A DNA stretch of 64,000 nt from Gonatopus flavifemur (lineage: Eukaryota > Arthropoda > Insecta > Hymenoptera > Dryinidae), in contig JAFFJZ010000004.1 in the NCBI GenBank assembly GCA_018340375.1, positions 44,618,001 through 44,682,000 on the forward strand, written 5' to 3'. Made by a program: the position numbers and the translations under genes. Every line of letters starts with the position of its first letter. Within the stretch, counting starts at the first letter, position 1. The notes under the pieces were generated by a model. The model saw nothing but the letters and a program-made list of their open reading frames with translations, made no database searches and was not told where the DNA came from. Below, piece after piece: positions 1,720 to 61,678 of this stretch.

Positions 1720-1720
1720 T

Positions 1721-2811
1721 ATGTCGCCTTTGAAAAGAAATAATAGGAGAAAAGATGGAGGGGAAGAAGTAGTGGGATTCGTATTCTATGATTTCGAGAT
1801 ACGTCAGGACGAGACGATCGACGGTGACGACAAAACGAACGTACATGCACCGACTTTTTGTGTTGTACAGCAAGTTTGTACAGAATGTATTGACAACGGC
1901 GATAGTGATATCATTGTTGAAGAAGAAAATGGGTTGAGGACAGTGAGAACAGGTTGTCAGTTGTGTGGATCAAGAGAGCATGTGTTCGGGGTAGATGTGA
2001 AACAATTTGTCGATTTCGTGATGGACAGAAAAAATTACAGTCAAATCATTTGTACATCAAATATCTCAGAAAATCCTGGTTTGAGATCTGTGGCTAAACT
2101 TTGTCTCAGTTTGTTTCGGGGGAAGTTTGGTCAGAGAGATGATCTTAAGGAAACCGATATTATCACAACTCGAGAAGCATCCGTTGAAAAATCAACCGAT
2201 TGTAAGTACGAAGTATTCGGATTATTAACAGTTAACGATCATTTATTATACATGGATTGTAAATCCAGAGACGAATCCCTTGAACCATCTATACGAACGA
2301 ATGTAGTGATCGCTGCGTATACTACACCCCATGCTCGATTGGAATCATATAGTGATCTTGAGCAACTGAGTCAACGAGCGTTGTATTACGATACAGATTC
2401 TTGTATCTATCTATCTAGCGACGTGGATGGGGAATACGAACCCCCTTCAGGTGATTTTCTTGGAGATCTTACAGATTACCTCGGTGGTGTTTACATAAAA
2501 TCTCTTGTTTCCAGAGAACCAAAATTCAACTCTTGAGTCGTAGGAATGCCCAATAGTGAAAAGAAAGAATGTGATCGGATCAAAGGAATCACCCTCAACT
2601 GTAGAGCTCGTGGGGAAATGAATCATCACAGGATTAGATCTCTCGTCCTTGACGAAACCGAGCCATTCAAAATAGCTTCCCGGGCAATAAGGAGAACGCC
2701 GTTCCATCAAGTCATCACTGGTGGTGGAATAAAAATTTGTAAGCCCACTTCCTCCAAGCAACGTGAAGCCCAAGGAAACGATTCAACTCCACCTACGGCT
2801 TCAAAGAATAG
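1721..2811 (+). pseudogene. polB: Polinton DNA polymerase B, exonuclease plus polymerase remnant
   Basis: Protein-primed family B DNA polymerase, the replicase of Polinton/Maverick elements. The frame 1721-2536 (271 aa) holds an exonuclease-like FYDFE motif near residue 23, a Cys-rich linker, a GKFGQR motif near residue 135 (polymerase motif B region) and YYDTDS near residue 224 (motif C with the catalytic Asp pair). After a stop at 2534-2536 the thumb-like remainder continues at 2546-2811 and ends in a YGFKE-type tail. The exonuclease motif and motif B are only about 110 residues apart, so several hundred codons including motif A are missing by internal deletion around 2040-2075. It is a pseudogene. 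Confidence 0.8.
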
Positions 2812-2869
2812 AAAGCCGAATTCCATATCGGAAATTAGTTCCAGGATATCAAGATCTGATGTGTACTGA

Positions 2870-3237
2870 CGGATATTCTTCCCGTTCCAGGGGATCAATT
2901 ACTCACGCTCAAACAGTTGTGTTGGGTAGAACTCTTAAATCATTCCGAATGGATTGCCATGCGAGATCCTTTCTGGGGCGTGAATAGTGGATATGCTATC
3001 GCATTGAAACATTCGATGAATTCAGACAATCGTACTACTCTATGGTATAATGAGTACCATGCTGCGGAGCCTTTGCTCAACATCATGGACACAATCACTC
3101 CTTGTGAAGTGTTATTCCGGGAAAATTGGGATGATCCGTTTTGTATAAGATTCTATAGTGGGGATATCCCAACTTTTGAATGCAAATTTCTCGTTCAACT
3201 TCATATCAACTGTGAATTTATTCCGAAGATATCGTGA
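2870..3237 (+). pseudogene. Unrecognised Polinton-context ORF
   Basis: An open frame of 106 codons at 2917-3237 follows the polymerase on the same strand and precedes the ATPase. It is rich in aromatic residues and has no motif that I recognise. An AATAAA-like signal lies about 60 bp after it (near 3297). It could be a degraded Polinton accessory gene, but this is context only. Confidence 0.3.
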
Positions 3238-3452
3238 AATTCCCTTTGTGTTCTGGAAGATTGTGAATTTTTCATGAATATTGTATTTTTATACGAATAA
3301 ATATTGCGAGAACAATCCATGTCTTGATTCTTCAACCCCTTCTAGTCCCATCCAATCATAGAATTAGCTAAATTCGGTTCAAACTTCATAACGTATCTGA
3401 AGAACTGGGAGATAAATTTCTATGTAAGTTTAAAATTCCCTGATTCCCAAAG

Positions 3453-4109
3453 ATGGACATGCGGTGGAAGCATCCTTTCACGTCAATGATTGGCTGTCCT
3501 ACGGGTTGTGAGAAAACAGTATTTGTGAGAACATTTCTTGGATATTTGAGTGGAACGTGCGATACAAAAATTGACAGGATATCATTTTATTATTCAGGAT
3601 GGCGAACAGAGTACCAAGAGTACGGCAAAATCATTGAATTTTGAGAAGGTTCACCATGTTCGAGCGATTATTCGGACGATCCTTGACCGAAACTTGTAAT
3701 CATCGATGATCTCATAAGCGAGTCATCAAACAATGCAGTTGTTAATTTGTTCACTGAAGGAAGTGATCACAAAAATATGAGTTCAATTTTTATAACACAG
3801 AATATATCCCATCAATGGGAAGGACCATGAGATATTTCTTTGAACGCCAACTACATAGTCATTTTCAAAAACCCTTGGGATCGTGCGCAGATTCAACATT
3901 CGTCTCGTCAAATATGTCCAGGGAATCCTAAATTCCTACAAGAAGCGTATAGAGACGCAACAACTGTACCTCACGGATATCTAATTTTGAATTTGAAACA
4001 ATCGACACCGGACGAATATCAATTTCGTACGTGCATATTTCCCAGCGATTCTTTACATTACGCATACGTTCCACGCACAAGAACATCGCTATTATGGAAT
4101 GATGTGTAG
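3453..4109 (+). pseudogene. Polinton packaging ATPase (A32/FtsK-HerA type)
   Basis: The N-terminal part (3453-3644) contains a P-loop-like segment GCPTGCEKT followed by VFVRTFL. In the usual Walker A of this family (GPTGCGKT) the residue before Lys is Gly; here it is Glu. A Walker B-like LVIIDDL is encoded near 3690-3710 in another frame, followed by a sensor-like FITQN near 3795, and the C-terminal part (3840-4109) returns in the first frame. Several stops and shifts between 3640 and 3840 break it. In Polintons and related viruses this ATPase pumps DNA into capsids. It lies among the other Polinton genes, all on the + strand. Confidence 0.8.
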
Positions 4110-4237
4110 TTCATCAAAAGTGATCAGTCCATATTTGTCAACGCGATGGCTCACTCGGTCAATCATACTGCGAAGAAGCGAATTGGGGAGGAAAACGCAA
4201 TTATATAGTGAGCGCTTTGTCACTTGCATAAAAATCA

Positions 4238-4459
4238 TTGGGGAAAGGAACTATCAAGTTCATTTGTGAATGTGTGCTCAATACGTTGTTGGGGAATGCA
4301 CCTCTGAGTAACAAAGGAAAGAAAAAGTTTGCGAAATCTGAAAATACTCTGCGTCGTATAGCAGACTCTGGTGGGAGTTTACAGACTGAGAAACGAGTGA
4401 TTGTACCGGGTGGGGGTAGTTTCTCACCATTTCTGATAACACCTTCACTTGGGTCATGA
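4238..4459 (+). pseudogene. Small conserved Polinton protein
   Basis: A 73-codon frame: an N-terminal segment with CECVLNTLLGN, a Lys-rich middle, and a Gly-rich PGGGSFSPFL segment near the C-terminus. A small protein of this layout is commonly found next to the ATPase in insect Polintons. Its job is not known to me; a minor virion role is plausible. It may start earlier, near 4145, in another frame. Confidence 0.45.
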
Positions 4460-4499
4460 TTATCTGACGCATTGATAAAAACGAATAATTGATGACAAA

Positions 4500-5300
4500 A
4501 TGGAGTACACAAAGAAGATCGTTTTAACTTCACCTGAGAGTTTACAACGTCAGAGTATTGATAAGTCCCAAATGAACAGCAGTCAACAACCACAGCAACA
4601 TACTGTCCCTCAAGTTATGGATAAACCTCCGGTTCAAACACCGGGTGATGCAGCGACACGACTGGATGTTGAAATAAGTAGAATTTTGAACAGTCCTGCC
4701 AACAGGGATACAAACGAACGTTGAAAAGAATTTCATCAACTTTCACAAAGATACTCATTTCTTATGGGAGGAGTTTAAAAGCATGTCTCAGATCGAAGAG
4801 AAGGAGAAAACGAAGAATGTGATGAGAGAAAGAATGATCAATTGATCATTTGAAGTGTTCCAAAATGTTATCAGAGACAAGCACAACTTTTACTCGAACA
4901 TATCCTGAGACACCTGAACAACATCGCATCAAATGGAACGGACGAGGAACTGTTACCATCGACGATGAGGAGATTCGGATGGGGGCCAAATCAACGAAAT
5001 CAGTGTTGGACAGTGTTTGGAAAGTGAGAGTGTGACGTATCTCTCTTTTCAACCAACTTTCCGTTGATTTGGTTTTTCGTTAATTTGGCCCCCATCCGGA
5101 GATTTCAGATCAGAATATCGTGGATTTTATCAACAATGCATTACGGTACAGAAAATCAGTACAAACTATCGGATCTCAACGGTTGCTCAATTTCTTCGAG
5201 ATATAGGCACCCCTCGGGCATACATTGGTGATATAAAATATTGGTGCAACAACGAAGAAAAAGCAACAGCTTCTTTATCTAGAGCACTTGTAGAAGAACA
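4500..5300 (+). pseudogene. Conserved Polinton protein of unknown role, broken
   Basis: The frame 4500-4724 (74 aa) starts with a short hydrophobic/basic segment, has a Gln/Pro-rich stretch and an LDVEISRILNSP-type helix. Fragments of the same gene follow to about 5300 in other frames, including RIKWNGRGTVTI near 4927-4960 and NIVDFINNALRYRKS near 5115-5160. The layout fits the conserved protein lying between ATPase and integrase in many Polintons. It is interrupted by a small MITE (4977-5097) and by frameshifts. Function unknown. Confidence 0.45.
4977..5097. mobile_element. 121-bp MITE with imperfect 8-bp target duplication
   Basis: Inverted ends GGATGGGGGCCAAATCAACG and, in complement at the right, GGATGGGGGCCAAATTAACG. 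The flanks are GGAGATTC (4969-4976) and GGAGATTT (5098-5105), an 8-bp duplication with one mismatch, as made by hAT transposases. The ends resemble those of the 489-bp element at 57179-57667, so both probably belong to one hAT-type family. Confidence 0.75.
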
Positions 5301-5311
5301 GAAGGTCAAGA

Positions 5312-5512
5312 GTGAAAGAAGCTCTGTATCAGGAGATAGTATACAAGATCCGACTCAACCTTATATCAATCACCAAGAGTAGTGTACGCATAGATAGTGA
5401 AACAGGGAGAGGTGAAAAGAGAAGGATTCGTGTATTGACTTATCAGTTACCAAAAGATTCTGTCAGAAGGAGACTACGTGCATACAGGAAATTCAAAATT
5501 TTGACAGAATGA
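5312..5512 (+). pseudogene. Basic C-terminal fragment, Polinton context
   Basis: A 66-codon frame, strongly basic towards the end (RGEKRRIRV, SVRRRLRAYRK). It ends five bases before the integrase-like sequence begins. It may be the C-terminus of the preceding gene or a separate small DNA-binding protein. I do not recognise a defined family. Confidence 0.35.
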
Positions 5513-5516
5513 ATTC

Positions 5517-6600
5517 ATTCGCTGGATTGTACTACAAGCCTTCACACTACGCAGGGTTTCCTGCTGAAGAAAACCTTCCACGCGCGACAAAAGACGAAAT
5601 CACGAAAGATGAAGCTAAAAATTGGTTGGACCACCAAGATGCCTACACTTAACACGAACCTATACGAAAAAAATTCCCACGCCTACATTACAACGTCACG
5701 AACATGGATGACGTTTGAGAAGTAGACTTGGTCGGTCTCAAAAAATTTCGAACGAACAATTACGGGTTTTTTTACATATCAGTGGTTATCGATATACTCA
5801 GTAAATACGTTTGGGTTGAACCCTCGAGAAATAAGTCTGCAAGTCCGATAGCATCAGCATTTGCAGAAATTTTTGGAGAATCTGGAGGTAGGACACCTGT
5901 TCTTCTACAGACCGATAAAGGTAGCGAGTTTATTGGTTCAAAGACACAAGGTATTTTCAAACGTGGAAATATATTATTCCGAATAACACATCACCCTGAT
6001 GTCAAAGCAGTGGTGGTGGGAAGATTGAGAAGAACGTTGATGAACGTATGTGGAGATACTTCACTCATAATGATACTCATCGTTGCATCGAAGTGTTGCA
6101 GCAAATCGTGGATGCTTATAAGTGAACGATACATAGGAGTATCAGAATGACAACTTCTTCTGTAACTTTGGAAAATGCGCAGTTGGCTCGTGCAAATATG
6201 AGCAAGCTACATCGAAAATATCAAGAACATAGGCCTGAATACTGTGTTGGTGAACACGTTCGTATCAGTCAAACAGAAGCTACCTTCAAGAAGGGGTACG
6301 AAGCAAATTGGAGCGGAAAAATATTTCGGGTGATTCGTGTTTTGAACTGGAGGAAACCGTAAGATTACGAAATTGGAGAATTATTCAGTGAGACTATTGA
6401 TGGTATTTTCCACGAGGAAGAACTTTCGAGCGAGGAAAAATGTTCGGGAACAGAAGAATTTCATTCCGACAAGATTCTGAAAACTGAAGGTCGTGGAGAT
6501 ACAAAACAATACTTCTTCAGTTGGGAAGGATATCCTTCAAAGTTCAATTCTTGGATACCTGCATCGAGTCTTAAGGGCTCATCAGGGATCGATGTGATCT
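5517..6600 (+). pseudogene. Polinton retroviral-type integrase with chromodomain
   Basis: The c-integrase of Polintons inserts the element into host DNA. The N-terminal part near 5520-5720 is broken by stops. The catalytic core is at 5728-6150: VVIDILSKYVWV with the first catalytic Asp, LLQTDKGSEF with the second, then a degraded region where the Glu is expected. The frame 6147-6362 continues with an SH3-like segment (HVRISQTEATFKKGY). A chromodomain-like end (FFSWEGYPSKFNSWIP) lies near 6495-6560 in another frame. The order core, barrel, chromodomain is typical. Multiple frameshifts show it is dead. Confidence 0.85.
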
Positions 6601-6689
6601 TGTTTTACCTAGCAATAGTAGTATGGAGTATCCTCCTGACGACACAACAGCTTGCTCCACAACTGAGTTACCGCAAAAAATTAATTTGG

Positions 6690-7440
6690 GAGGACAGTAG
6701 AAAGTGCCATTGTCTGAAATTCAAATCCCTCGTAAATTCTTGCACATGAGGAGAAATGAAGGCTATATCCGGTACTATGAACATGCCACAAACTACGTAG
6801 CTGATGGTCTCATATACTTAATCGGGAGTTTTCTACGCTGTTCATGAACTTGTAAACGAATGTAACAGTATGATGAAACGACTTATCACTACTCGCCTGG
6901 GGATGAAATCTATAAACGGTCACAGAATACAAGTCGAAAAAAAATGTGAAAATTGTAGAGAGATACATCCCATACACTTTGACGATAAACTTTCGCGTCT
7001 ATTTGGATCCGACAAGACACAGTTATATGATCACAAAGACAATATAGAAGCTGTCGAGCCCATGAAATGGTATTCGATACATCCCAATGGAACAATATCA
7101 TCGGCGAAATATCCCGCCAAAGCATCATCAGGTCTTCCCGACAAGATGTTCATCTATTGTGACTTATGTGAGCCATACACTATTGGTGATGTGAGAGCAC
7201 CTTTGTTACGTATAGCGAAAGTGAACAATCACGATTATGTTCATGGTAGTAACCAAGTTGAAACTTCTTCACCATTGCATTACATACTATCGTTGAATAC
7301 AGAATTCAGCACCATATTGATAGATAAGAGATATCATCTTGGTCAATCAATCCCATTCGAAACTGGAACGTTGACCGTAACTCCACACTTCAAGCGAGTT
7401 TATTAGGAAAAAAAACAATCCATATCTAGAATGCTATGAG
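6690..7440 (+). pseudogene. Polinton virion-associated protein, broken
   Basis: The main frame 6870-7406 (178 aa) follows sequence from about 6700 that reads in another frame. It has two CxxC pairs (CENC; CDLC) and a C-terminal IPFETGTLTVTPHF segment that matches the end of a conserved gene lying upstream of the capsid gene in insect Polintons, sometimes considered a minor capsid (penton-like) protein. That function is known only by analogy. The gene is shifted at its 5' part. Confidence 0.5.
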
Positions 7441-11910: not shown

Positions 11911-14900
11911 CATCATCATGAAGTAATCAGTCTTATGACTGGTTTGATGGAATCCTCCAAACCTGTCTATCATCCGCTGACCGCCTAATTTCTGCATATC
12001 TACGGCAACCCTCATCTTGTATAATTTGCTTCATATAACTCAATCTAGGTCTACCTCTTCGAGTGTTACCATTCATTTTTCCTTCCAATATTGTTTTCAA
12101 TAAGCTATCATGCCTTAATGTGTGTCCTATCAGATTACTTCTTCTTTTCACGACCTGTCTCAAGAAACTTCTTTTTTCATTGACCTTCTCAAGTACTTCT
12201 TCATTTCTTACTTTCTCTATCCACTTTATTCTAAGCATCTTTCTATAACACCACATTTCAAAAGCTTCAAGTCTTCGTTGGTCCGTTTTTCCAATTGTCC
12301 AAGTTTCGCAACCATATAATGCTGTGCTCCAAACGTAACTCTTCAAGAATTTCTTCCTTACTGCTAAGCTAATATTCTTCGAACAAGTAACTGTTTCTTC
12401 TGGTGGGAAGCCTGTTTCCCTTGTGCTATTCTTGCTCTCATATCTCTTTCGCTTTTACCGTTTTCTGTAATTATGCTCCCTAGATATTTGAATTCTTTGA
12501 CTTGCTGAATTGTCTCTGCATCTATTTTGATTTTCGTTCTTCTTGATGTTTTCGCTGTTGTACAAATCATGAATTTTGTTTTGTCCTTATTGATATTCAT
12601 ACAATATTTGTCTAGTAATATTTCTTCTCATAGTGTTGAGAGTATTTTCTAACTGAGCACTACTCGTAGCTAATATAGCTATGTCATCCGCAAATCTCAA
12701 CATGCTTACATTTTCACCTTGAATCTGTAATTTCAATTGCACTTGCTCCTTCACTTCGTTCATCGCTTCTTCTATATACAAATTGAGGATCAATGGCGAT
12801 AGTGAACATCCTTGTCTCACCCCTCTTCTAATTTCCGCTTCTCCTTTTGACCCTCTATTTCTATTATTGCAGTTTGATTCTTATATAATTCATATTTTAT
12901 TCTCCTATCCCTGAAATTAATTCCTACCTTTTTCGAAATCGTGACCATCTTCCCCCATTCAATATTATCGAATGCTTTTTGTGTATCTACAAAACCTATA
13001 TACACAGACTTTTTTAACTCTAGACTTTTCTCTACTACTGTTCTCAGTGCTAATATTGTTTCTCGCGTTCCCCTATTTTTCCTAAAACCGAACTGATCTT
13101 CTGCTGACCTACTCTCTATTTTATTCTCTATTCTCCTGTATATGATTTTTGTCAGTATTTCCGAGGCATGTGAAGTTAAGCTAATCGTCCTGTAGTTCTC
13201 GCATTTGTCTGCTCCTTGTTTTTTTGGAATGGCGACAATTTTATTCTTCTGGAAATCTTCCGGTACCTCGCCTATTCCGTACATATCTCTGATCAATTCA
13301 AACAGTGCGTCACGAGTTCTCTGACTGGAGGCTTTGATAAGGTCCGCACTTATGCCGTCTATTCCTGGCGCTTTATTATTTTTCAATTCTCCCAAAGCCC
13401 TGTCGAATTCTGATCTCAAAATTGAATCTCCCAATTCTTCTTCATCGACATATTTCTCCCTCTCTGAGAATCTTATATCATCTCTTCCTTTATACAGATC
13501 TTCTAAATGATTAATCCATTGTTCTATTTTTTCCTCCGTTCTTATCAATTGTCTTCCTAGAGAATTTCCAATCTTACTGCTTCTAGATTTCATTTGTCCA
13601 AAAAATCTCTTCACAATCCTATATGCCTCGTGAATTTTTCCTAAATGTAATCTTACTTCTATATCTTGACATTTTCCCTCCAACCATTGTTCTTTTGCTT
13701 TCCTTGATTCTCTGATTATTTTATTCCTCAGTGCCTTGTATGTCTGCTGATCTTGTTCACTATTCTTATTCTTGTATTTCCTCCTTTCATCAATTAAATC
13801 GAGAATTTCTTATGTTATCCATGGTTTCTTAGGCTCCATCCCATCGTTCTTCAAAATTTCATCTGCACATTGCTCTATGTTCCCCTTCATATCTGTCCAT
13901 CTACCCTCTATTTCCAAGTCTCTCTCTTGTCGATCCTCCAATTTTTCGTCCCACATCACTTTGAATGCCTCTTGTGTTTTTCTTCGTTTGAGATTCTTCA
14001 AATCCCATCTTTTTTGCATTGTCCTTTCCTTCTTCAGAGCTTTGAATTTCAGAGAACATTTCATCAGCAACATATTGTGATCACTATCTATATCCGCGCC
14101 TGGATAAGTTTTACAGCTTTTCACTTGGTTTCTAAATCTTTGTTTTACTAATATGTAATCAATTTGATATCTTGCTGTATCTCCTGGCATTTTCCAAGTA
14201 TAGATTCTTCTTGGATGATTTTCGAATAATGTGTTGGTAATAACTATTCTATGACTCTCACAGAATTCGATTCAACGTTGTCCTCTTTCATTTCTTTTCC
14301 CTAACGCAAAATCTCCTATTATGTTGGCCTCTTCTCCTTGCCCTTCTACCGCATTCCAGTCGCCTATGATCATTACATTTCCTTCTCCCTTCACATATTC
14401 TATCACTTCTTCTATTTCATCGGAAGTTTTTTCGATATCCTCCTCTGAGTATGCAGATGTGAGCATGTATACTTGGACTACAACAGTGTCTACCGGTTTT
14501 GTTCTAACTCTGACCATCATTACGCGTTCGCTATGGTGCAAATAATTTTCTATCCTTTTATGCATTATAATTCCCACACTTGCTTAACCATTCTCATTCC
14601 ACTAATTCCCATTACATCGATACCCAACCTCTTCATTTCCAGTCTCAAATTTTCTAATTTCCCTGTTTGTCTCAGTGATCTAACATCCCACGCTCCAACT
14701 CGAAGAATGTTCCCTTTCTTCCCTATGTTCTTTGGTTTTCTATCTTGTTTGATGAGGTTCTCTCAAGCAGCCTCCACCCGGAGATCCGAACGGGAGGCTA
14801 TTTTACTCCCGGAATATTTTACCCGAGAGGACGCCATCATGTTGTTGTTGTTGCTTTTTTTTCTCAATAAATCAAAATTCAAAATTCCAGGTTTGGAGAA

Positions 14901-16032: not shown

Positions 16033-16988
16033 TAGAATAGATCAAATGTAGTCGCCTCGATCGATAATTCAAATCATAATACGAATAATGTCTTGCTAGA
16101 AGCGAAGAAACATATTCACATCGATCAATGAAATTAATCGATGCGTGTGCTGCTGATACAGCAAATTCAAACACACGAACGGATCCATGTCTCTCATAAC
16201 CACAACTCCTCACTCAGAGTATGTGATTAGAAGGAAAAAGATGAACTTTTTTTAAATATCTCGAAACGTGTCAAATGATTATTCTCTCTCATGACGAGTA
16301 AGCGGTACGATACGTACAAGACAAACTCATCGTTGAAGAGAGAATACGAACTCGTTTCAAAATTCAAACATTAAAGTTTCACATGAACTGAAGTTTCACA
16401 TGTTTCGCTTCTAGCAAAGCATTAATCGTATTATGATTTGAATTAACGACCGAAGCGACTACACTTGATCTATTCTATGGATTATCCTCTGCCGAAATGT
16501 AGGATTCAAACAAGTCTGGTAACTCGATTGATTAGTAGATGTCACTCGTAGAAGGGGGTCGTCAGGGGTCATGGTGGCGTAATTGGTTAACGCACTCCAG
16601 TACCTATGGGTAGTTCCAGGTTCGACTCCTGGCCATGGCGATTTCTTTTTCAAGATCTGATTCATTTTCAGTTCATGTGAAACTTTAATGTTTGAATTTT
16701 GAAACGAGACCGTATTCTCTCTTCAACGATGAGTTTGTCCGGTACGTATCGTACCGCTTACTCGTCATGAGAGAGAATAATTATTTGACACGTTTCAAGA
16801 TATTTTCAAAAAGTTCATCTCTTCCCTTCTAACCACATACTCTGAGTCAGGAGTTGTGGTTATTAGAGACATGGATCCATTCGTGTGTTTAAATTTGCTG
16901 TATTAGCAACGCACGCATCGATTAATTTCATTGATCCATGTCAATATGTTTTTTCGTTTCTAGCGAGGCATTAATCTTATTATGATTT
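16033..16988. mobile_element. Foldback element with 10-bp target duplication
   Basis: TACTAATGCA flanks both sides (16023-16032 and 16989-16998). The right part (about 16665-16988) is the inverted copy of about 16070-16390, including AAATCATAATA at the ends and a CTTACTCGTCATGAGAGAGA segment. A second copy of the left terminal sequence lies in reverse at about 16400-16480, so the structure is nested. 9-10 bp duplications are typical of Mutator-like transposases. The loop carries a tRNA-like sequence. The element breaks the LINE ORF2 of 11835-17440. Confidence 0.8.
16568..16639 (+). tRNA. tRNA-like cloverleaf, apparent anticodon ACC
   Basis: 72 nt fold as a cloverleaf: 7-bp acceptor GTCATGG/CCATGGC with one G.T pair, 4-bp D stem GCGT/ACGC with a loop containing GG, anticodon stem CTCCA/TGGGT with one mismatch and one wobble, loop GTACCTA with T33, and a perfect T arm CCAGG-TTCGACT-CCTGG. 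The internal promoter boxes are TGGCGTAATTGG and GGTTCGACTCC. The apparent anticodon ACC (Gly) is not normally used in eukaryotes, and it sits in the loop of a transposon. I favour a tRNA-derived passenger or SINE head rather than a working tRNA. Confidence 0.5.
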
Positions 16989-29163: not shown

Positions 29164-30169
29164 GTGAGACCTAAGAATATAAATTTCTCATTAAACTAAT
29201 TGAATGATAAATATTCTAATTTGCGATTTCTGAACGAAAATCATCAAATATAAACATGAAAAACTGATAAGCACAGATGGTTTATATTAGATGAAAACAA
29301 GATGAAGAATTTGATTGTTGGTAAATGTTTGCTGGAGGAAACAATTCACAGAAGGGAGAAAAAGTACTCAGAGCATCCCTGGTAGAAATTTTCTCTAGTA
29401 CATCGAGAGTTACTTATAAGTTTACCTATCTCACTTGTGAGTCACTCATAAGGAAAACTTACGAGTAACTTATTAGAATGTAACACTTCACTTAACTAAA
29501 TTCTAGCCATCAAAACTAGCGAGGCACTCAGTAGTAACTGACCAGGAACTTGTAAGAAACTAGCGCCACACTCATGACAGCAATTATATGCCAAAAAAGT
29601 TGTGAAGTTATAATAATACATCAACAATGATTATTCAGTGAAATATGCATGCTTTGGCCCAAAATGTTTTTGAAAATAAAAAATTGAATTTCGAGCAAAA
29701 ATCATGTTTCAGAGGGGACACTTGCAGATTACCACCAACGCACAGTGGGGCCAAATGCCAAAAAGCTGGCCAAAACCCCAAAAATGAAGTTTGTAGTTGG
29801 GGATATTTGACCCTTGGGATAAGTAAGGTGATGTCCCAAGTATTGGAATTCTGATATAAGAAGATCTGATCCCCTCCCCCTGCCCTTGTGTACCAGTTGC
29901 AAAATACCCTCTTTGAAGTATAATCCGCGTGATTGAAAGACAGTAAAATAACGAGCATGTTCAAAAAGACGCTGTGTCTCAAAAAATCAACCGATTTAAC
30001 TTTTTCAAATTGGAGTCTATTACTGAACTCTATTATGGGACTCTTACCTAAACATCAGAAAAAAAACGGCTGCCCATGTCTGCCCCTAAGCAATTCCGCG
30101 ATGTTTTTGTGCAGGAAATCACAAAAAATTAGACGGAGTGATGAGGAGTCCTTAGATCCGTCTGAAACT

Positions 30170-30560
30170 TGATATGCAGAAGTTTGTGGGGTCGCTGATT
30201 ATGAATCCGTTGTCTTCATTTCGGAATTCAAAATGGCGGATCCAATATGGCGGACGAAAATTGAAAGAAATCATCGGATTTCCTTCAAATTCGTTACCCA
30301 GGGGTTTCTGAGGTCGCTGATTACGAATCCGTTGTTTGAATTTCAAAATTCAAAATGGCGGATCCAGTTTGGCAGAAAAAAATTGAAAAAATTATCAGAT
30401 TCCCTTCAAACTCGGTATCCAGGGTTTTGTGGGGTCATCGATTACGAATCAGTTGTCAAATTCCAAGATTCAAAGATAGCGTATCTAATATGGTGGACAC
30501 AAAACTCAGAATTCAGTAGATTCGCTTTGAATTTTATCTCAACGTTAGTATGTGTTTTAT
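30170..30560 (+). repeat. Left subterminal array, 3 units of ~120 bp
   Basis: Three copies of a unit containing GGTCGCTGATTACGAATCCG and TCAAAATGGCGGATCCAATA, in inverted orientation to the array at 34100-35040. Such subterminal repeats may be transposase binding sites; this is inference. Confidence 0.75.
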
Positions 30561-30700
30561 TTCCAGTGTACATTTGCTGCACGAGGAAAACTGTATGAGA
30601 TTGATTACCATTCGTTTTTCTTCTCATCGCGGGCTTAGGGTACACAAAAGCCAGGAATCATTGATATTTAGGAAGATGATGGACCATTGAGAGAAAAACA

Positions 30701-30838
30701 GTATTGCTGGAGAATATTCGTAGTGAATTTACTATGAGTTGATGAATTCACTATGGGAAATGACAATAAAACTACCAACATTTAGTATTATTACTACGAA
30801 TTTTTGGTAATTTCACTGCTAACATTCTTCAGCGATGC
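30701..30838. mobile_element. Small imperfect palindromic MITE
   Basis: ATTGCTGGAGAATATTCGTA at left and, in complement, ATCGCTGAAGAATGTTAGCA at right. It lies between the left subterminal array and the transposase gene. Confidence 0.45.
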
Positions 30839-31169
30839 TCTTTTTCCCTAAAGTAACCGTCATTTTCCTAAATGTTTATAAATGTTATTCAAGTATTGAT
30901 ATCTCTTTTCTTTTCGTGAACTGAATCATGACTCGCGATTTGGTGATCGTTCTTATGTTAACCTATCGTTTCCATGGCAACGTAAATACTTGGTTGTAAT
31001 CGGTCTGATTTCAAATGGTGCTTATCACAATTGTGCAATAGCTGTCACCGAATTCTTACTCTTGCTAGTAATCGTTACCGTAAACTTTTTTCCGCGTGCA
31101 AGTTTGGAGCTTGGTGAATATTTTTCGTTTTTTAAAATCATTCAATGTTAACATACAATTCCAAATGAG

Positions 31170-33858
31170 ATGGATTCCGCTGCCATAGGTGAGTGTTTCA
31201 ACAACCTATATTTTCTTAGTAGTTTAATTTGAACAGTTGACTGCAAAAAAAATTAGCTTAAGAGGGTTGAATCCAACCCAAGAAAATTAGGAAAATTTTT
31301 AGAACCACATGGGGTTTCTGTAGCGAATTTTATCGAATTCTACAACGTTTGTAGATTTCAAAGATGATTCAATATCTATGACTCGGAGAGAGATGTACAA
31401 TATTTTGAGGAGCAGTCCTCTACCTACGTTGGATGAAAAGTTCACTTTCCTTGAAGGAAAAATCATCGAGATAACGTGTTGTCCGGATAACAAAACTACA
31501 GAGATCTCTAACCTTTTATCTACTTTTAAATGTGTATTTAAAAAGAGATAGGAATCTTCTCAAAGGACCGAAGAACGATTTCTTAAAAATAATGAAGAAT
31601 GGTTAAAACAAGAGGTAGTGTTTTGTACTTTCAGGAATCCCCATTCTGTAACTGTTGACACGCAAGTGGGAAGACCTCTTGTTGAATTCAACGAATGTTC
31701 AGAAAGAACGAAACGTAGGAAAACGGAGAATATCAGAGTAAATACTCCTATCTCAGAGCTGTCTTACGCCACACAAATGTGTTTGAGAGCGTCTGGACAG
31801 ATCGAAGCCGCAAAAATTGTAAAGGATGTTACATCTTCTGATCCTGAGCTTGCTAAAATGTATATGGAAGGTTATCAAACTTTCAAGCGAAATGAGCCAA
31901 AGATGTTGAATGATGAAGATGCTCTAGCTCTCCTAGTAGATGTCGAGCTCTCAAAACATCAGTACTGCTTATTGCGTGAAGCTGATCCGCAGAAATTTCC
32001 ACCTTATAAAAAAATTCAACTGGCCAAACGCATGTGTTTCCCTGACAAGGAATTTATTCAAATAACAGAAACCTGCGCTGTTGTGCAACTACAAGCACTT
32101 CTTGATCACACAGCTACACGTATTTTGAAGCTACAGAAGTCGGTTTTGTCAACTTTATCTGATGAAGAGTTACAAAACCTGGTACTTATTTCCAAATGGG
32201 GGTTTGATGGGAGCTCTGGCCACTCCTCATACAAACAAGCATATCAAAGTTCGGAAGCTAGTGATTCCGCTGTGTTCATTACTTCACTTGTGCCTCTCCG
32301 CCTACACTGCAATTCAAAAATAATTTGGCAGAATCCAAGGCCATCATCAACCAAATTTTGTAGGCCAATCAAAATAGAGTTTGTGAAAGAATCAACTGAA
32401 GTTTCGGTTGCAGAGAAGCTACGGGTTGATAATGAAATAGAAAATCTGAGGGCTACTTCTTTCAGAACTGATGAAAAACATGTTTCAGTGAAACATGAGA
32501 TGATTTTTTCTATGGTGGACGGGAAGGTATGCAATGCCATAACTGAGACAACCTATACCCAGAAGTGCTATATATGTGCCACATCTAAGAAATTCAACAA
32601 AATTGATGATATAGTATCCAGGCCGGTCAAAACCGAAAACCTCCTGTTTGGTTTGTCTTGTCTACACGGCTGGATACGATTTTTTGAGGGCCTCCTGCAT
32701 TCGTCTTATAAGCTACCTATTCAGAAGTGGCAAGCACGAAAACAAGATAAAGCTTTGGTGGAAGAACGAAAAAAGGTTGTACAGAAAAGTTTTGAAGAAA
32801 AATGTGGCCTCATTGTCGATGTTCCTAAGCCAGGGTTTGGGAACTCAAATGATGGGAATACCGCTAGGCGATTTTTCGCACAACCCGAAGTTTCTGCCGA
32901 AATCACAGGGGTGGATGTCAACCTAATACAACGACTTCATGTAGTATTAGCTACCGTTTCAAGTGGCCATGAAATAGACGTTGAAAAGTTTCGGAGTTAC
33001 GCTTTAGACACGGCACGCTACTACGCGACAAAATATCCGTGGTACCCAATGTCACCTACGATGCACAAGTTTTTGATCCACGGACCTGAAATCATTGCAT
33101 CTGCTCTTCTACCTATAGGCCAATTGACTGAGGAAGCACAAGAGGCTCGTAACAAAGATTTTAAAAGGTGAAAATGATGTATATCACTTAATAATAGTCT
33201 ATATTTGTCACAGTGGACTCGACACTTTGAAGGGAAAAATTTGACCTCTCAAGTACTGCAATCAGTTCGATACATTGCACAATACGTTTTTGACTACTAG
33301 GCAAACTATATATTTATGGTAACCACGAGAATATATGTTCGCGAAGATTGTTTTGTTCTGGTAAGGAATTCGGGGAACTTTTTTTTATTGATAAGCCACA
33401 TTGTTCATCCTCTGGAAACATAAATTCATAGACTAGAAAACAATTTTGAGAATCAAGTAAACTTATGAATTAGAGGATTTATTCAAAACTTCATACTGAT
33501 GACCCCAAAGTGCAGCTGCTTTTTGTTTTTCCTTGATTTTGCTTGTCATGTTGAGATCAAAAGCTTTAACGGTGTCGATGAATACATAATTATATTCAAA
33601 TATCTTAACAACATTCATTTCCAAAGGTACCGAGAGCATCACTCCAGGAAATGCAGTAGAGAAGAAACGAATGAAGACATTTTTAAATGGTTCCTTTTGA
33701 GTTCTGATCCAATGTTATCGAGTAAAAGACAGTTGCCCAAGAAAAAACTGAAGTTTATCCCTAGAGACGTGTTAAGCCTGATCAAAACTCCGGATATACT
33801 TGATAAAGACAACGTAACTTTCCCATTATCTTCCTCTGAGAGTGAAGAAGAAGACTGA
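31170..33858 (+). pseudogene. RAG1/Transib-superfamily transposase gene, 3 exons, slightly damaged
   Basis: Exon 1 (31170-31188) encodes MDSAAI and ends at a GTGAGT donor. Exon 2 (about 31237-33167) is damaged at its start by frameshifts and a TAG at 31549-31551, then stays open for over 500 codons. Exon 3 (33627-33858) follows a 459-bp intron in correct phase and ends in an acidic SSSESEEED tail. Visible in exon 2, counting from 31618: KWGFDGSSGHS with Asp197 as the likely first catalytic residue, a CYIC zinc-type pair at 317-320, CLHGWIRFFE near 348, DGNTARRFF near 418, and TEEAQEARNKDFKR near 505. That order resembles the RAG1 core (DG motif, C2 pair, LHCD helix, NGNFARK, E-N-E-S-G-N-K helix). 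The Asp of the LHCD helix is not conserved here. It cuts and joins the CACAGTG ends by family analogy. Confidence 0.68.
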
Positions 33859-34099
33859 TCTGAGTAAAAAAAGTGTGGCAAAAGTAAAAACCATTACGAT
33901 TTCAGTTTTTCATATTATTGTATATATTGTGAATGTATATATCTTTCGATTCAACACATTTGGTGTGGTAATATCATTCGATAATTATATTAATGATGAT
34001 TCAATGTTGGAAATAATAATAATAATGATCATAATAGGAACAACAAAATGGGCCGTTTAGTCCTTGTTTAATATTAAGTTATGAATGAAGTTTTGATTT

Positions 34100-35040
34100 T
34101 TGGCATCCGCCATCCTGAATTTCGGAATTTTGACAACGGATTCGTGATCAGCGATCCCGAAAACCCCTGGGTACCGAGTTTGGAGGGAATCCGATGATTT
34201 TTACAATTCTCGTCCGCTTTATTGGGTCCGTTATTTTGAATTTTGAATTTCAGACCGTGGATTCGTAATCAGCGACCACAGAAACCCCTGAGTACCGAGT
34301 TTGAAGAAAATTCGATGATTTTCTTAATTTTTGTCCACCATATTGGATCCGCCATTCTGAATTTCAAAATTTTGACAACGGATTCGTAATTGGTGACCCC
34401 AAAAACTCCTGGATGCCGAGTTTGAAGAAAATCCGATGATCTTCTCGATTTTATTCCACCATATTGAATTCCGGAATGCAGACAACGGATTTGTAATCAG
34501 CGACCCCAAAAATCCCTGGGTACCCAATTTGAAAAGAATCCGATAATTTTTTCAATTTTCGTCCGCCATATTGGATTCACCATTCTGAATTTGGGAACTC
34601 AGACAGCGGATTCGTAATCAGCGACCCCGAAAACCCCTGATCACCAAATTTGAAAAAAATCCGATGATTTCTTCCAATTTTCGTCCACCATATTGGATCC
34701 GCCATTTTGAATTTCGAAATGAGAACAACGGCCCGTAATCAGCGACCCCAAAAACCGTTGGGTACCCAATTTGAGGAGAATCCGATGATTTTTAAAATTT
34801 TCGTCCGCCATATTGGATTCGCCATTCTGAATTTTGGAACTCAAACAGCAGATTCGTAATCAGCGACCCCACAAACCCCCGATCACCAAGTTTGAAGGAA
34901 ATCCGATGGTTTCTTTCAATTTTCGTCCGCCATATTGGATCCGCCATTTTGAATTTTGGAATTCTGACAACGGATTCGTAATCAGTGACCCCATAAACTT
35001 CCCGAGTACGGAGTCGCAAGCGAATTTGAGAGCCCCTTAT
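34100..35040 (-). repeat. Right subterminal array, 8 units of ~121 bp
   Basis: Eight tandem degenerate units marked by ATTCGTAATCAGCGACCCC at near-regular spacing (34149, 34270, 34388, 34496, 34616, 34737, 34858, 34980), each followed by TCCGCCATATTGGATCCGCC. They are inverted relative to the three left units. Open frames here are repeat artefacts. Confidence 0.85.
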
Positions 35041-35124
35041 AATTTTGTCCAGCTTTTTGGCATTTGGCCCCACTGTGCAACGTTCACCTCGTGTTCAATG
35101 CGATGTAGAGAATATTGAAAACCT

Positions 35125-35215
35125 CGGAGAGAATCGAACCTACCAATTCCTACCTAATGTTGCGCGATCTACTATCCTAACGCCCTTACGACCTAAACTA
35201 AACCGGTACCTACGC
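35125..35215 (-). repeat. tRNA-like / SINE-like segment
   Basis: Just outside the RAG1-like element, the - strand carries a B-box GGTTCGATTCTCTCC (35132-35146) preceded by an A-box-like GTCGTAAGGGCGTTAGGATAG about 45 nt upstream. No complete cloverleaf. Confidence 0.35.
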
Positions 35216-35399
35216 GATGCATTAGAAAAGATCAATTGAAGTGACGTGTTTATCCGATTCAATCATCCGTCGGTTGAATATAATAATCTATGAGCCTGTG
35301 TGAAAATTGCAGTTCGGTTGACAGATGTTAGGTTAGAATTTATGTGATCAAAAAATGAATGAATTATTTTTGTGAAATGTGTGGTGGTTATTTCTTGAA

Positions 35400-36950: not shown

Positions 36951-37939
36951 TTAATCAAGAAATGACGAAAGAAGAGTACTTGGTCGAAACTTATATTTGA
37001 TTATGACGAAACACATCACATATTCATTCAGGTCATGCTCTTTGAATAATACTCAAATGATGTGTATGATGATGTGCCGTGTAGAAAAAAAAATGATGCT
37101 GAATAGTTAATAAATCAACCTTATGAGAATTGTGATAAGTTATATGAAATACTTATTTCGCTGGTGATGGTTGAACGTTTGTTAAGTGTTTTTCTGTATG
37201 CATAACGTGGAAAATCTTGTGAAATTCTCATAAGTTCCGCCTAATTATAACCCAAATACTTAGTTGAGTTAAACTTATCACTTACTGACGAGTAAGTCAC
37301 GAGTTTTACTTAACTAGTTCTCCCTCACTAGTGCCTCACGAGTTGTGGGGAAAAACTTATGATATTTCTACCAGGGATGCGAGCGTTCGTCATGATTCTT
37401 TCTACCGTATAGCCATGGCTTTGTATAACCAAACTGCTCAGTTAGCAATATTTGTTTCCTCTCAAAAATATTCGTCCCAGAAAAAATCATCAGATCTACT
37501 CAGATCTGTAGAAATTTTATTAGATTTGATTTTTGACTCACGAGATCCGATTTGATGTCTTTAGATCTTGGCACATCTAGTTAGATCTCTGTAAATTTAC
37601 AGAGTGAATTTGATCTTGATAAACAATTGACTTTTCTGATATAAAAAATATTATGGTACTTGTATGTGTATGAATTTGAATTTGAGTATATATGCTAACA
37701 AATACACAGTCCAGATCTATATCGATCACTTTAGATCTGAACAAAAATTAGATTTGATTAGATCTAATAATTTTTACCCGGATAGACGATTTGAATCCGG
37801 TGATTTTTAGGTTCTTCATATGCAAATATTGTATTTCTATCTAACAAATATACTGAGAACAAAATGTTGTTCATATTTTCCTCTGAAGAAATATTATTTG
37901 AATTCAGAAATGAGTTTCATACTTCTTCCTTCATTTTAG

Positions 37940-39123
37940 CAAGTGACATCCCCAATGAGAGACAAGTGATTACAAATTCTGATTCTGAAGAGTCTACAGA
38001 CGAAATCAGTGATTCCGAGTCAAGTTCAGAACAAGTATCAGCAACAAAAATTCTTTGTGAAGCGGAAGCGTCCAATGAACTTGTACTTCCAAGCCATCAA
38101 AGGTGTTGTTCGCACACCTTAAATCTAAGAGCTTCTGTGGATATCTTGAAAGCTTTGAAAGACAAAAAAAGAGGAAATTATGCCCGTCTTCATGGATCTG
38201 TATTTGGAAAGTGTAGTGTTTTTTGGAATTTGAATTCAAGATCACCTAAGGCAGTTGAAGTATATCAAGAAATTTGTGGAAAAGCCTCAACTTCACCTGT
38301 ACCAACAAGGTGTAATTCACAGCACGATTGCCTGCTGGACCTGGTTAAAGTTAGGAATCAGCTGAATGAATTTTGTAAAGCACACGAGTTACTAGAGTTC
38401 AAAGAAATTGAATTTATTTTCCTTGAAGAATATATCGATTGCGTTGGTCCTCTGTCACAAGTATTGGATCGTTTACAATCCGAGAACAATTGTTATTACG
38501 GTATATTACTCCCAGAATTGTTCCGTCTTAAGAAAGATCTCCGGAAATCAGAGATGTGGGCTCTTACTTATTGTACAGTTCTAATAAAACATGTATTGAC
38601 AAGCCTCGAAGAGCGCTTTAGCGTTTATCTATCCTTATCACCAATGGTGAATGATGCTATTCTAGCTTCTGTGTCGCACCCTTCCTTCAAATTGATATGG
38701 GTTCCAAAAGATAAGAAAGAAATGATCAAACAGCTTTTTATACAAGAAGCCTGTAGGACAAAACCTAAGAAACCAAATGATGGCAGTAAAAAAAACGAAG
38801 AAAAATGCCAAGCCCGAGAATTATACAAAAATGATGACGATGAATTTGGAGAGTCTTCAGATAATTCGGAAGGAATGAGCGGCACACAGCTAGAGTGTAT
38901 GCAGTATCTAAAGGACAGTTCAGAAAATTTGGAAATGTTGAAAAAATATTCTAGTATCGCAGAAATGTTTATACGGTTCAACACCACACTCCCATCTTCT
39001 GCACCGGTAGAGCGTTTGTTTTCTTATTGTGGTATGATTATGCTACCTCATCGTCGCAAAATGGCAGACAAAAACTTTGAATATCAATTATTACTAAAGG
39101 CAAACGCTCATATGAGTGTTTGA
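37940..39123 (+). pseudogene. hAT transposase exon 5 (C-terminal, dimerisation domain)
   Basis: It opens after a TTCATTTTAG acceptor with SDIPNERQVITNSDSEES and runs 394 codons to a stop at 39121-39123 without interruption. It contains HQRCCSHTLNLRASVDI (CxxH insertion-domain start), VPTRCNSQHDCLLDL (RW-like region) and the hAT dimerisation block with TLPSSAPVERLFSYCGMIM and HRRKMADKNFEYQLLLKAN. This is the best preserved part of the gene. Together with exons 1-4 it gives a full-length BED-hAT transposase with one premature stop in exon 3. It could be a degraded transposon or a recently lost domesticated copy. Confidence 0.8.
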
Positions 39124-40205: not shown

Positions 40206-42330
40206 CTAAGCAGGGAGCGCTCTATTTCGGCACGAGGTTGAAGGATTTTATTCCTAACGCTACGAAACTGGATCAATAAATAATCCCTTGTATTAAGCAA
40301 TACCCTGGTGAAAATATGATATACGTTTGCGGAAGGAAGTGTCATTTTACTCTCCAAAATGTGCGGATCTTCGCTTGATGTACATTTGCATTCAATTTTT
40401 ATGAGACTTCGTGACATCGATGACACTTTATTTTTACCAGGGTATAATATTTCATGTCCGTTTTGGCTGTACTTCCATGTAATGCACTTTACGGAATTGT
40501 AACATCCTTTCACATGAGATCGGTACACCTCGTTTCTCACTGGGGCACTATTAGCACCCTTCTTGTTATTCCACCCAACAATGGCGTGGATGGTAGATCA
40601 CCCGCTGCGAAACTAACTTTCTAAAACGTTTTTAGTATTCAATACACTGGCATAGTGAGTGTTACATTCGAGCGTAGGAAAGACCAGGGAGAAAGATCGC
40701 GTGGAGGGGAAAAAAGCTGGAGAACCCGTTGGCAGTGTAAATCGAGCTCACAATCCAATCAGACACCTCTTCCTCTTCCACCCTACCGACCCTGTTGCCT
40801 GCCCTCGAGGCTTGTCAGGAGCAAAGTTGTAAGAGATGGAGGGTGCTATGGGTGTTGAAGTATGGGATACGAGAAGGGAAAGAGAAACGAGAGAAGAGGA
40901 TTTGACTTACTTCGAAGGGCCACAGAGACAGCTCGAGGCCAGAGATAGGCAGAGAGTATTGCGGACTACGCGAAAGACAACAAGATATTTTCAAGTACGA
41001 TTTTGATAGAATTTTCAAATGAGCTTCAATTGCGTTAAACGCTACAGTTTTCAGGTTGAGGAAATATTTTCTCAAACGACATTTTCAAGTCTTACGCGGA
41101 TAAAAGTGACAGAGTTTTTCTTGTCATCGTCGTTGCCGTAAGAACATTATCAATGTACTCAGCTGCTTTTTTTCAATAATTTCCATGTTCTCCCTGTATA
41201 TAAAATTCTGATCTGATTTTTTTAACTTGAGTAGGCAAAGTGCCATTGTAGTGATTTGAGTGTATCAAGCCGATGAGATCAGTTATGTTCCCAAATATGT
41301 GATTATATAACTCTCACAGTCACATTTCTGGGAATCTTGCAAGCGTCTTCGTTGATCAAACAGTAGTTCAATGAAAAAATGACAATTCTGAAAAAGATTT
41401 CGAAAATTCTACCGTCATTCAATGGTAGTCTTGAGAACTTTATGTCTAGTATCTCTTGAGAATGAATGGTCAATCTTTGGGATTGGATGAGCTTAGGATG
41501 TTTCTGCTTTTATCAGTAAGAACTGCCAAGTACTGTTCATCTGAAATTTCAATTTTGAATACTGTGAATATTTGTAGTTTTCCAAAAGTTAGCGTTATTC
41601 TGGTATTTATATTTCAGAATATATTCATCTGAATTTACTACCCATTCCATAATTTATTTATTATGGGGATATACAAACGGATGGTTCATTGGTATATCAA
41701 TTTTGACAACTCAAGCTTATATAATCCTTCTATCATTCTGATCTTACTGATGTTCATGCATCATTAGATATGAGCCCACAGAGGGAGAATGAGCTGGTAA
41801 TGGCATCCGAGCTACAGTTAACATATAGACAGCAAGGAATGATTGTCATTTCCACCGGAATTCTTGTTAAATTCGACGAAAATTTGATCTATTCAACAAG
41901 AATTCCTAGGAACAAGAATCTATGGGAGATATATATTTCTTGCCATCCATATATCAACTAGAGTCCCGGTGAAAGGAACAGTTCATTTTTCTTCGAACAG
42001 GTTTTGATTCTCCGCAATTCATTTGGACTTCTAAAATTTTAATATTGAATGAATTGCTCTCATTTCAGAACATGATATGTATTTTTGTTTGAGCTATCAC
42101 AGCATTCATGTATTCGTTGATCCGTGAATAGGCATGCAGCTGGATAACAAACCGACGTCAACATATTTTTTAGAATCCTAAGAGATATGTTCCAAAAGCA
42201 CGGAAACTTTCGGAGAAGTTTGTAAAATACATCTTTCTATATCCAAAAATATGAATTCCCAAATAATTGTTATGAATAGTTCATCGGTTTTTCTGTACAT
42301 TCCGTACTTTGAGGTTTTTGAGGTTGGTCC
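40206..42330. other. No gene recognised
   Basis: A somewhat more GC-rich patch at 40560-41080 has short frames on both strands but no motif or codon pattern that I can support. The rest is AT-rich with nothing recognisable. It could be one of the few single-copy host stretches of the window. Confidence 0.4.
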
Positions 42331-42334
42331 GTTG

Positions 42335-42830
42335 CCAAAATTTCCGAATTAAAAATAACGGATTCAATATGGCGGATTGAAATTTGTAAAAGTGAGGGAC
42401 TTATTGTTGAAATTACTGTTAGAGAGATGCACAGTTGTGTCAATCTTAGGAAAGTTAGCTAGACCATAAGAAAAAGGATAAGTCGAAATAATTTGCAACT
42501 ACTTTTTTATTATTCTTCAATTATTCCGATCCTAAAACACCTCTTATGACATGCTTCTTATGAAATATCATGAAAATGTTTTATTCAAGTCTGCCATATT
42601 GGATCCACCATTTTGTTCTCAAATTTCGATTTCGGATTTGTAATTGACGATCTAAAACGCCATGATTACCTAGAGTTTAAAGGGTAATCCGCTGAATTTT
42701 TAAATTTTCGTCCACCATATTGGATCCATTATTATGAATTTAGAAAATACGACAATGAATTCGTAATTAGCTACCTAAAAAATCACTGGAAACCAAATTT
42801 GAAGGAAATCCGCTCAATTTGCTTCCTGAT
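42335..42830 (+). repeat. Degenerate RAG1-like-element subterminal repeats
   Basis: Units with GGATTCAATATGGCGG, GCCATATTGGATCCACCATT and CACCATATTGGATCCATTAT match the arrays of the 29741-35077 transposon in both orientations, which points to a decayed related element. No CACAGTG end is visible here. Confidence 0.6.
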
Positions 42831-46822: not shown

Positions 46823-47887
46823 TTATTTCAACAAATGTTCAGATTGGTGACCTTCAACTCCAATGCACTCATTGATCCGTACTTCAAAAGATCGTACACA
46901 ACTCCGAAGCATATTAGGTGGTATTTTGACACAAGCATCCTTGATCCGCTGTATCATGTTTCCTCGAGATGTTGGCACTTGTTTGTAAACTTCGCCCTTC
47001 AAGTAACCCCATAAAAAAAAGTATGGCGAGGTGAGCTCTGGCGATCTTGCTGGCCAATTTACTGGACCACTCCTACCGATCCAGCGTCCATTGAACTCGC
47101 GATCCAAAACTTGACGAGCAACTTGAGATTAATGCGCTGGACATCCATCGTGTTGAAACCACATTTGTTGCCTCACAGCTAACGTGACGTCTTCAAGTGA
47201 AAGCGGAAGTTGGTTTTCCAAACAACCACGGTATTTTCCGCCGTTCAAGTGACCCTCAATGAAGTGTGGACCCACAACCTGGTCTTCAATTATCCCACAC
47301 CAAACGTTCACAGACCATTGACGTTGATGTTCGACTTGACGTAACCAATGTGGATTTTCATTACTCCAGTAGTGCATGTTATGCCTATTAACCGTGCCAT
47401 GGCTGGTAAAAGAGGACTCGTTCGAAAATAGCACTTCAGCAAAGGAATCAGGATCTCATTGGATTTGTTGACGTGCCCATTGGCAAAAAATAATTCGGTT
47501 GTGAAAATCATCACCATGGAGTTCTTGATGCAATGAAATGTGGTAGGGGTGATATTTTTGTTTTTTCAATATCCTGGATACACTACGTTGCGAAATTTCA
47601 GAATCATGTTCGATTTCTCGAGTACTGACATGAGGATCAGTATTCACTGCAGCTAATACAGCAATTTCATTGTCGAATCCAGTAAGTGTGTTGTGACGGA
47701 CTCTTTTTCTGTTCCCCACACTTCCCTCTCCCATGAATTGTTCAATGACCGGATAAAAAGATGCTCGAGATCGCTCGTTGTTCGGGAAACGTTCAGCATA
47801 AAGTGTAATAGCGACATGAACATTCCTGGCACATTCACCATAAATGAGGATCCTTTCTATTCTTTCTTTTACAGGAATGGCCTCCAT
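46823..47887 (-). pseudogene. DUF4817-type Tc1/mariner-like transposase, two stops
   Basis: 355 codons in one frame from the ATG at 47887 to the stop at 46823. The N-terminal helix-turn-helix part has LIYGECARN, ISQRSVSRIL and HPYHISLHQELHG, the DUF4817 pattern. The DDE part follows: FSNESSFTSHG, where the first catalytic Asp appears as Asn, FQHDGCPAH with the second Asp, and WPARSPELTSPYFFLWGYLK, where the usual third-Asp position reads Tyr. In-frame stops are TGA at 47456-47458 and TAA at 47129-47131. It would cut and paste its element; this copy is inactive. Confidence 0.85.
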
Positions 47888-48057
47888 TATTGGAAGAAAG
47901 TTTTACAGAGAGGAAATTCAGAAAGAAATTAGCAGTCAGCAAAAGAGAAGATTAGAGAAATCAGAATACACAAATCACGATATTCGTTGAAGTGCCGAGT
48001 TATGGACCGAAAATATCGAGAGACAGAACGCAATTACATACACCGGTTTGATATGGT

Positions 48058-58930: not shown

Positions 58931-58959
58931 AGCCACGTGCCGATTGGCAGAATTCTTTG

Positions 58960-59110
58960 ATTTCTGTTCACCATATTGGATCCACCATTTTGAAATGTTC
59001 ACAATGAATTCGTAATCAACCACCTCAGAAAGCCCCAGGTACTGGACCTCAAGTGAATTCCAGAACTCCTCATAATTTCGCCCAACTTTTCGTCATTCTG
59101 CCCCACTGTG
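58960..59110 (-). mobile_element. Solo right end of a RAG1-like-family element (CACTGTG)
   Basis: In complement from 59110 it reads CACAGTGGGGCAGAATGACG, close to the 29741-35077 ends, and continues through a GAAATTATGAGGAG segment and one subterminal unit (CACCATATTGGATCCACCAT). No matching left end was found nearby. Confidence 0.7.
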
Positions 59111-60685: not shown

Positions 60686-61036
60686 TCGCCTCCCCGTGGA
60701 TGATTGCGGGTCTTCCAGGGGGATATTCATGATACCTGTCCTTGATATCCTTTTTATCCATCCCTGGTAGTATCTGCTTCCTTTACGTGGTGGGGAGGAT
60801 AAGTATCTCAGAGTTGGGTCTTTTTTTTTTGAGTGGAATAAACTACTCAAGAGAAAGAATACAAACTGAGAGAAACGAAATCATCCTAATGCCAGAAACA
60901 TCGGCAAAATCAAACGGAAGGAAAGCAAGGGGAAACTACCTTCCTTGACATGTTTCAATACTTCCCGAGGAAATGAAACCTTCTTCCTAACCTGGAATAT
61001 TATGTAACAAAAACAAACAAACAAATTAATAAATAC

Positions 61037-61678
61037 ATGATGGGGCTCTCTCGAGTAAAATATTCCGGAGGTAAACTAGTCTCCCGTTCGGATCTCCGGG
61101 TGGAGGCTGCTCGAGGAAGCTTCATCAGCAAGGAACGAAAATCGAAGAATAGGATAGGGAAAAGAAACAACATTCTTCGAGTTGGAGCGTGGAATGTTAG
61201 ATCACTGAGGCAAGCGGGAAAATCAGAAAATTTGAAATTAGAAATGAATAGGTTGAATATAGACGTAATGGGGATTAGCGGAAAGAGATGCCCACAAGAG
61301 GGCGATTTCTGGAGTGGGGATTATAGAATAATTCATACAGGATCAAAGAACGGTCAAGCAGGTGTAGGAATTGTAATGCATAAAAGAGTAGGAAATAGAA
61401 CAGAAAATTATTTGCAACATAATGAACGTGTGATGATGGTTAGAATCAGAACAAAACCGGTAGACACAGTCATAGTCCAAGTATACATGCCCACATCTGC
61501 ATATTCGGAGGAAGATATTGAAAAAACGTACGAAGAAATAGAAGAAGTGATAGAATATGTGAAGGGAGAAGAGAATTTGATAGTGATGGGGGATTGGAAT
61601 GCGGTAGTAGGACAAGGAAAAGAGGACATTATAGGAGATTTCGCGTTAGGGAGGAGGAAGATAGAGGACAACGTTTAG
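61037..61678 (+). pseudogene. RTE LINE endonuclease part, frameshifted
   Basis: 213 codons from the ATG at 61037. APE-type endonuclease motifs: RVGAWNVRSL near residue 49, GVGIVMHKRV near 110, QVYMPTSAYS near 147 and VMGDWNAVVGQG near 184 (DWN). At the place of the usual catalytic Glu (GISE) it reads GISG. A one-base loss near 61650, seen by comparison with the - strand copy, throws the frame into a stop at 61676-61678; the protein continues in the frame of 61594-63945. Confidence 0.8.

Follow-up and report, generated by a model that had tools for sequence, protein, structure and literature searches.

Ends, duplication and empty sites of a Transib element

The 64-kb window of the Gonatopus flavifemur genome analysed here (64,000 nucleotides of contig JAFFJZ010000004.1) carries at 29741-35077 a Transib element of 5,337 bp. 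It is almost certainly a member of a numerous and apparently recently amplified Transib family that moves by the mechanism proposed below. The antibody-gene recombinase RAG1 is believed to derive from elements of this group. The borders of the element are the following:

29736-29740, no strand: left target-site duplication CAACG (a single CAACG in 5/5 fetched empty sites)
29741-29769, plus strand: left terminal inverted repeat, with the heptamer CACAGTG at 29741-29747; this 29-mer occurs 606 times in its own genome
35049-35077, minus strand: right terminal inverted repeat; its CACAGTG heptamer lies at 35071-35077 (minus strand)
35078-35082, no strand: right target-site duplication CAACG

The two ends are identical over 29 bp when 29741-29769 is read on the plus and 35049-35077 on the minus strand (CACAGTGGGGCCAAATGCCAAAAAGCTGG). 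The bare heptamer is a word common by chance, as the window holds 8 occurrences against 4.6 expected and 11 of 100 shuffles reach 8. Since the heptamer alone is too common, the case for the termini is made by the long 29-bp match, the CAACG duplication and the copies across the genome; indeed, the exact 29-mer is found 606 times in the 636-Mb genome, while a reversed-pattern control is found 0 times. The first-pass annotation, made from the letters of the window, had reported 29-bp identical CACAGTG ends and a CAACG duplication, and this observation is real, as confirmed by the coordinates, the genomic 29-mers and the empty sites.

The sequences on either side of the element (29591-29740 and 35083-35232) are a copy of another abundant repeat, which hosts the Transib and gave 611 candidates at first look. 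When these flanks were joined into a 300-base query with one CAACG kept, all 40 places scored among the 611 candidates gave a match across the junction, at 93-97% identity and covering all or almost all of the 300 bases. In each of the five empty sites fetched, the junction is uninterrupted and contains one CAACG (CCACCAACGTTCACC), and the differences lie away from it: substitutions scattered along the flanks and, some 60 bases into the right one, a single 6-bp gap. The single CAACG at unbroken junctions therefore means that the element entered an older copy of the repeat and duplicated exactly 5 bp. Thus, transposition of the window copy is directly shown by its empty sites.

The same duplication was surveyed in the window element and in 20 fetched copies, drawn from the best-scoring matches in the genome. 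Both ends were recognisable within the fetched stretch in 17 of these 21 sequences, the others being L019, L023 and L026, each lacking one recognisable end, and L021, where an end falls outside the fetched stretch. The 5-bp duplications are identical in 15 of the 17 (one mismatch in L014, two in L024), are GC-rich and follow C-G-N-C-G in the base counts over the 15 exact cases; the duplication is also present in L020, a 4.1-kb copy that is internally shortened. The search for further copies with 5-bp duplications that the first-pass annotation had proposed thus gave the outcome it expected, and no other duplication length emerged.

The transposase and its relatives

The gene model comprises three exons, deduced from the sequence, and places the residues discussed below as follows:

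31170-31188, plus strand: predicted first coding exon (MDSAAI), with ATG, GT donor and in-frame join
31355-33167, plus strand: main transposase exon, RAG1-core-like, with acceptor TTGTAG and donor GTGAAA
31549-31551, plus strand: in-frame TAG at codon 72 of the window copy
32206-32208, plus strand: catalytic D291, aligned with HzTransib D126 and RAG1 D600
32389-32391, plus strand: E352, invariant in 30 aligned sequences and aligned with a RAG1 glutamate that we take to be E662
32518-32520, plus strand: catalytic D395, aligned with HzTransib D225 and RAG1 D708
33142-33144, plus strand: catalytic E603, aligned with HzTransib E436 and RAG1 E962
33627-33858, plus strand: last coding exon including the stop codon; relatives extend through the same region

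The numbering of the catalytic D, D and E of HzTransib and RAG1 follows passages of PMC6941560. The exons given earlier, 31618-33167 and 33627-33858, were nearly right; the main exon reaches upstream to 31355, in the same frame and with the TAG at 31549-31551 as its sole interruption, and the small first exon at 31170-31188 fits. This TAG breaks the frame of the window copy, a defect that went unnoticed in the first-pass annotation, as did the great size of the family. At the same site the 20 fetched copies have Trp in 17 cases, Cys in L025 and the same stop in L013, while L009 is out of frame. Of the 17 fetched copies in which all three exons were found, 12 have a main exon of 1,816 nt, against 1,813 in the window copy. 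Under the predicted splice model, 8 of the 20 fetched copies have an open frame of 688 amino acids; among the 12 that do not, 3 have no match to the last exon, and the predicted exons of L025 contain no stop.

Profile and fold comparisons show that the transposase is homologous to the Transib/RAG1 core, and in the alignment with HzTransib and RAG1 the D, D and E catalytic residues lie at homologous places. As in Transib, the ends start with CAC in a sequence resembling the heptamer of the recombination signal sequence (RSS), and the target-site duplication is GC-rich and 5 bp long, as seen in the exact duplications and the empty site. Taken together, these features support the assignment of the element, by sequence comparison, to Transib transposons with RAG1-core homology. 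The relation to RAG1 and Transib, at first proposed from motif resemblance, is borne out by significant profile and fold matches, with Transib as the best homology, and neither of the outcomes named as refuting it (a best match to a non-RAG family, or a duplication length other than 5 bp) occurred. Chapaev and CACTA, whose target-site duplications differ in length from 5 bp, were rejected on the 5-bp duplication and on the best homology.

The significant profile and fold matches extend to RAG1L and RAG1, which could suggest a RAG-like (RAGL) transposon, closer to RAG1 than to Transib, that has lost RAG2. An N-terminal GRP motif with a run of basic residues behind it also aligns with RAG1, in a segment that falls short of significance when taken alone, and passages of PMC9435367 describe GRP as a feature of the nonamer-binding domain of both RAG1L and Transib. 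The three longest open reading frames outside the transposase exons gave no Pfam match at E 0.01; no RAG2L gene was seen in them, as in single-gene Transibs, and a RAGL origin is very improbable.

Among known systems, HzTransib of Helicoverpa zea (PDB 6pqn, 6pqx) shares with the element the transposase fold, the catalytic residues, the inverted ends and a 5-bp target-site duplication, reported as GCTCG in a passage of PMC1852546. Identity is about 43% over the matched structure; HzTransib has 3,518 bp and a deduced protein of 489 amino acids, whereas the element here has 5,337 bp and about 688 amino acids, and its inverted 121-bp arrays are a further difference. Uncharacterised insect Transib-like proteins are also similar: the best-scoring match is Sitophilus oryzae LOC115890777 (P0001; 58% identity over 97% of the query), the top identity among the 120 matches listed is 63% over 81% (P0021), and in a quick tree of 67 rows the element has an end branch of 0.64 beside these proteins. 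ProtoRAG and vertebrate RAG1 with its RSS have in common with the element the RAG1 core fold, the DDE residues, the CAC heptamer and the 5-bp duplication; they differ in that no RAG2 was seen here in the three open reading frames scanned, there is no 12/23 spacer pair and sequence similarity is weak.

In particular, the heptamer CACAGTG is the exact RSS consensus at both ends. The first-pass annotation had considered this special in an invertebrate element, a view that does not hold, since matches are already described in passages of PMC6941560 and PMC8355894: the former states, citing Kapitonov and Jurka 2005, that the consensus heptamers and nonamers of some sequences recognised by Transib are the same as those that RAG recognises, and the latter makes a similar statement for some 12/23-asymmetric Transibs. 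The exact heptamer alone leaves the RAG origin story unchanged. A vertebrate-type 12/23 pair was not found at the two ends, as the nonamer score at spacer 23 is 5/9 on the left and below 5 on the right, and at spacer 12 it is below 5 on both. The heptamer together with an A-rich block 22 bp further in could make up a bipartite, RSS-like signal whose nonamer is functional: the left block CCAAAACCC matches ACAAAAACC at 7/9 positions and the right block ACAAAATTA at 6/9, scores equalled or bettered by 0.4% and 2.2% of element positions at spacer 22 (1.7% and 8.6% with spacers 20-24), and symmetric spacers of 20-22 bp in Transibs are mentioned in PMC8355894. However, the bases CAAAA are common to both ends, so that the two blocks are not independent; the left end also scores 7/9 at spacer 21, and a block at spacer 10 scores 7/9 at both ends. 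Moreover, an older relative at 58953-59110 keeps the heptamer and, in our reading of the alignment, only 4/9 of the block at spacer 22, and most Transib ends, such as those of HzTransib, have little or no nonamer similarity according to a passage of PMC8289069. Evidence for a functional nonamer is therefore weak, and such a signal is distinctly unlikely.

Copy number, age and proposed mechanism

A scan for ends that carry the 22-bp tail and begin with C found 644, with exact CACAGTG in 606 and a different heptamer in 38. Simple halving of the 606 exact ends gives about 300 elements. In the first 100 exact ends, which were listed for pairing, 68 could be joined into 34 convergent pairs less than 20 kb apart, leaving 32 without a partner; the span is 5.3-7.6 kb in 33 pairs and 14.8 kb in the remaining one, with no short pair. 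The main exons of the 21 sequences have a mean divergence of 1.17% (0.50 to 1.98%), L011 is the nearest neighbour of 16 of the 21, and variable sites number 58, 57 and 70 at the three codon positions. Divergence, neighbours and codon spread look like those of a recent burst, with mostly neutral decay since then.

The copy number is the notable and less expected feature of what is otherwise a known kind of transposon. Indeed, according to passages of a 2015 paper (PMC4411706), autonomous Transib copies typically number one, or a few at most, and are often damaged; its authors make a similar statement in a reply to a reviewer.

Transposase from open-frame copies is predicted to bind the 29-bp ends. 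By analogy with HzTransib and RAG, it would nick 5' of CACAGTG and form a hairpin on the flanking DNA; the excised element would then enter GC-rich targets resembling CGNCG, with a stagger of 5 bp, in this case within an existing repeat. The window copy would have been mobilised likewise, either in trans or prior to its frame break.

Several points weigh against this overall explanation: the unpaired third or so of the ends listed (32 of 100) and the listing of 100 of the 606; the mismatched duplications in 2 of 17 copies; the 4 of 21 sequences outside that survey; and the lack of a Pfam match above cut-off for the window transposase pieces or for an open copy. Age and intactness are also biased to the young because the 20 copies were taken from the best-scoring matches. 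The window copy and 12 of the 20 fetched copies fall short of the full open frame, which could suggest that the copies are dead and were spread by segmental duplication instead of transposition. The distinct flanks, each with its own duplication, and the exact empty site of the window copy argue otherwise, making this scarcely credible; for the window copy itself, the empty site refutes segmental duplication.

Hundreds of near-identical long copies would aid the study of how such elements escape control, and the family would supply many natural insertion sites, end variants (the 38 of 644 scanned ends with altered heptamer) and empty sites. Owing to the exact heptamer, the ends would be handy as test substrates for RAG and HzTransib.

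Subterminal arrays and other features of the window

Repeat arrays lie inside both ends, and an older end lies elsewhere in the window:

30165-30512, minus strand: left subterminal array with three units, each about 121 bp long, in the opposite orientation to those on the right
34100-35014, plus strand: right subterminal array with 7.7 copies of the 121-bp unit
58953-59110, minus strand: diverged right end from an older, related Transib, with 72% identity, 24/29 identical among the first 29 bp and CACAGTG kept

A core motif of the arrays was scanned in 17 of the 21 sequences, those with a left end fitting the scan pattern; it runs forward near the right end and reverse near the left in 16 of them, and only near the left in L019, which has no right end. 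The older end at 58953-59110 retains CACAGTGGGG, and no matching left end was found within the window. Relic 121-bp units occur at 42328-42820, with about 68-79% identity to the element arrays in the longer matches and no 29-bp end found there. Diverged units also accompany the older end at 58953-59110, and because of both occurrences the inverted arrangement is an old one in this genome. Our guess is that the arrays may be additional binding sites. A fuller reading is tentative and rather unlikely as a whole: the family would still be mobile and, contrary to the norm of one or a few, would have reached hundreds of copies in a single insect genome, most of them full-length and of autonomous type; it would combine an exact RSS consensus heptamer with inverted 121-bp arrays that are old in the lineage and act as extra sites for transposase binding or assembly.

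Other apparent mobile elements are also present. Pieces of open reading frame at 1706-7406, with a weak sub-threshold match to DNA polymerase B (E 0.008) and an integrase-core match just under the cut-off (2.5e-7), are possibly a Polinton/Maverick relic. Non-LTR (long terminal repeat) retrotransposon copies lie at 60977-63945 (plus strand) and 11933-14271 (minus strand), with reverse transcriptase domains in both open reading frames scanned and species-named relatives mostly in aphids and psyllids. At 37804-39123, an open frame of 439 amino acids resembles by eye the C-terminus of a hAT transposase, with no Pfam match at E 0.01, and 47456-47902 (minus strand) has a DUF4817 match above cut-off and a sub-threshold match to a Tc3-type transposase helix-turn-helix. 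Finally, a tRNA-Gly gene with anticodon acc lies at 16568-16640 (ARAGORN; tRNA match in Rfam).
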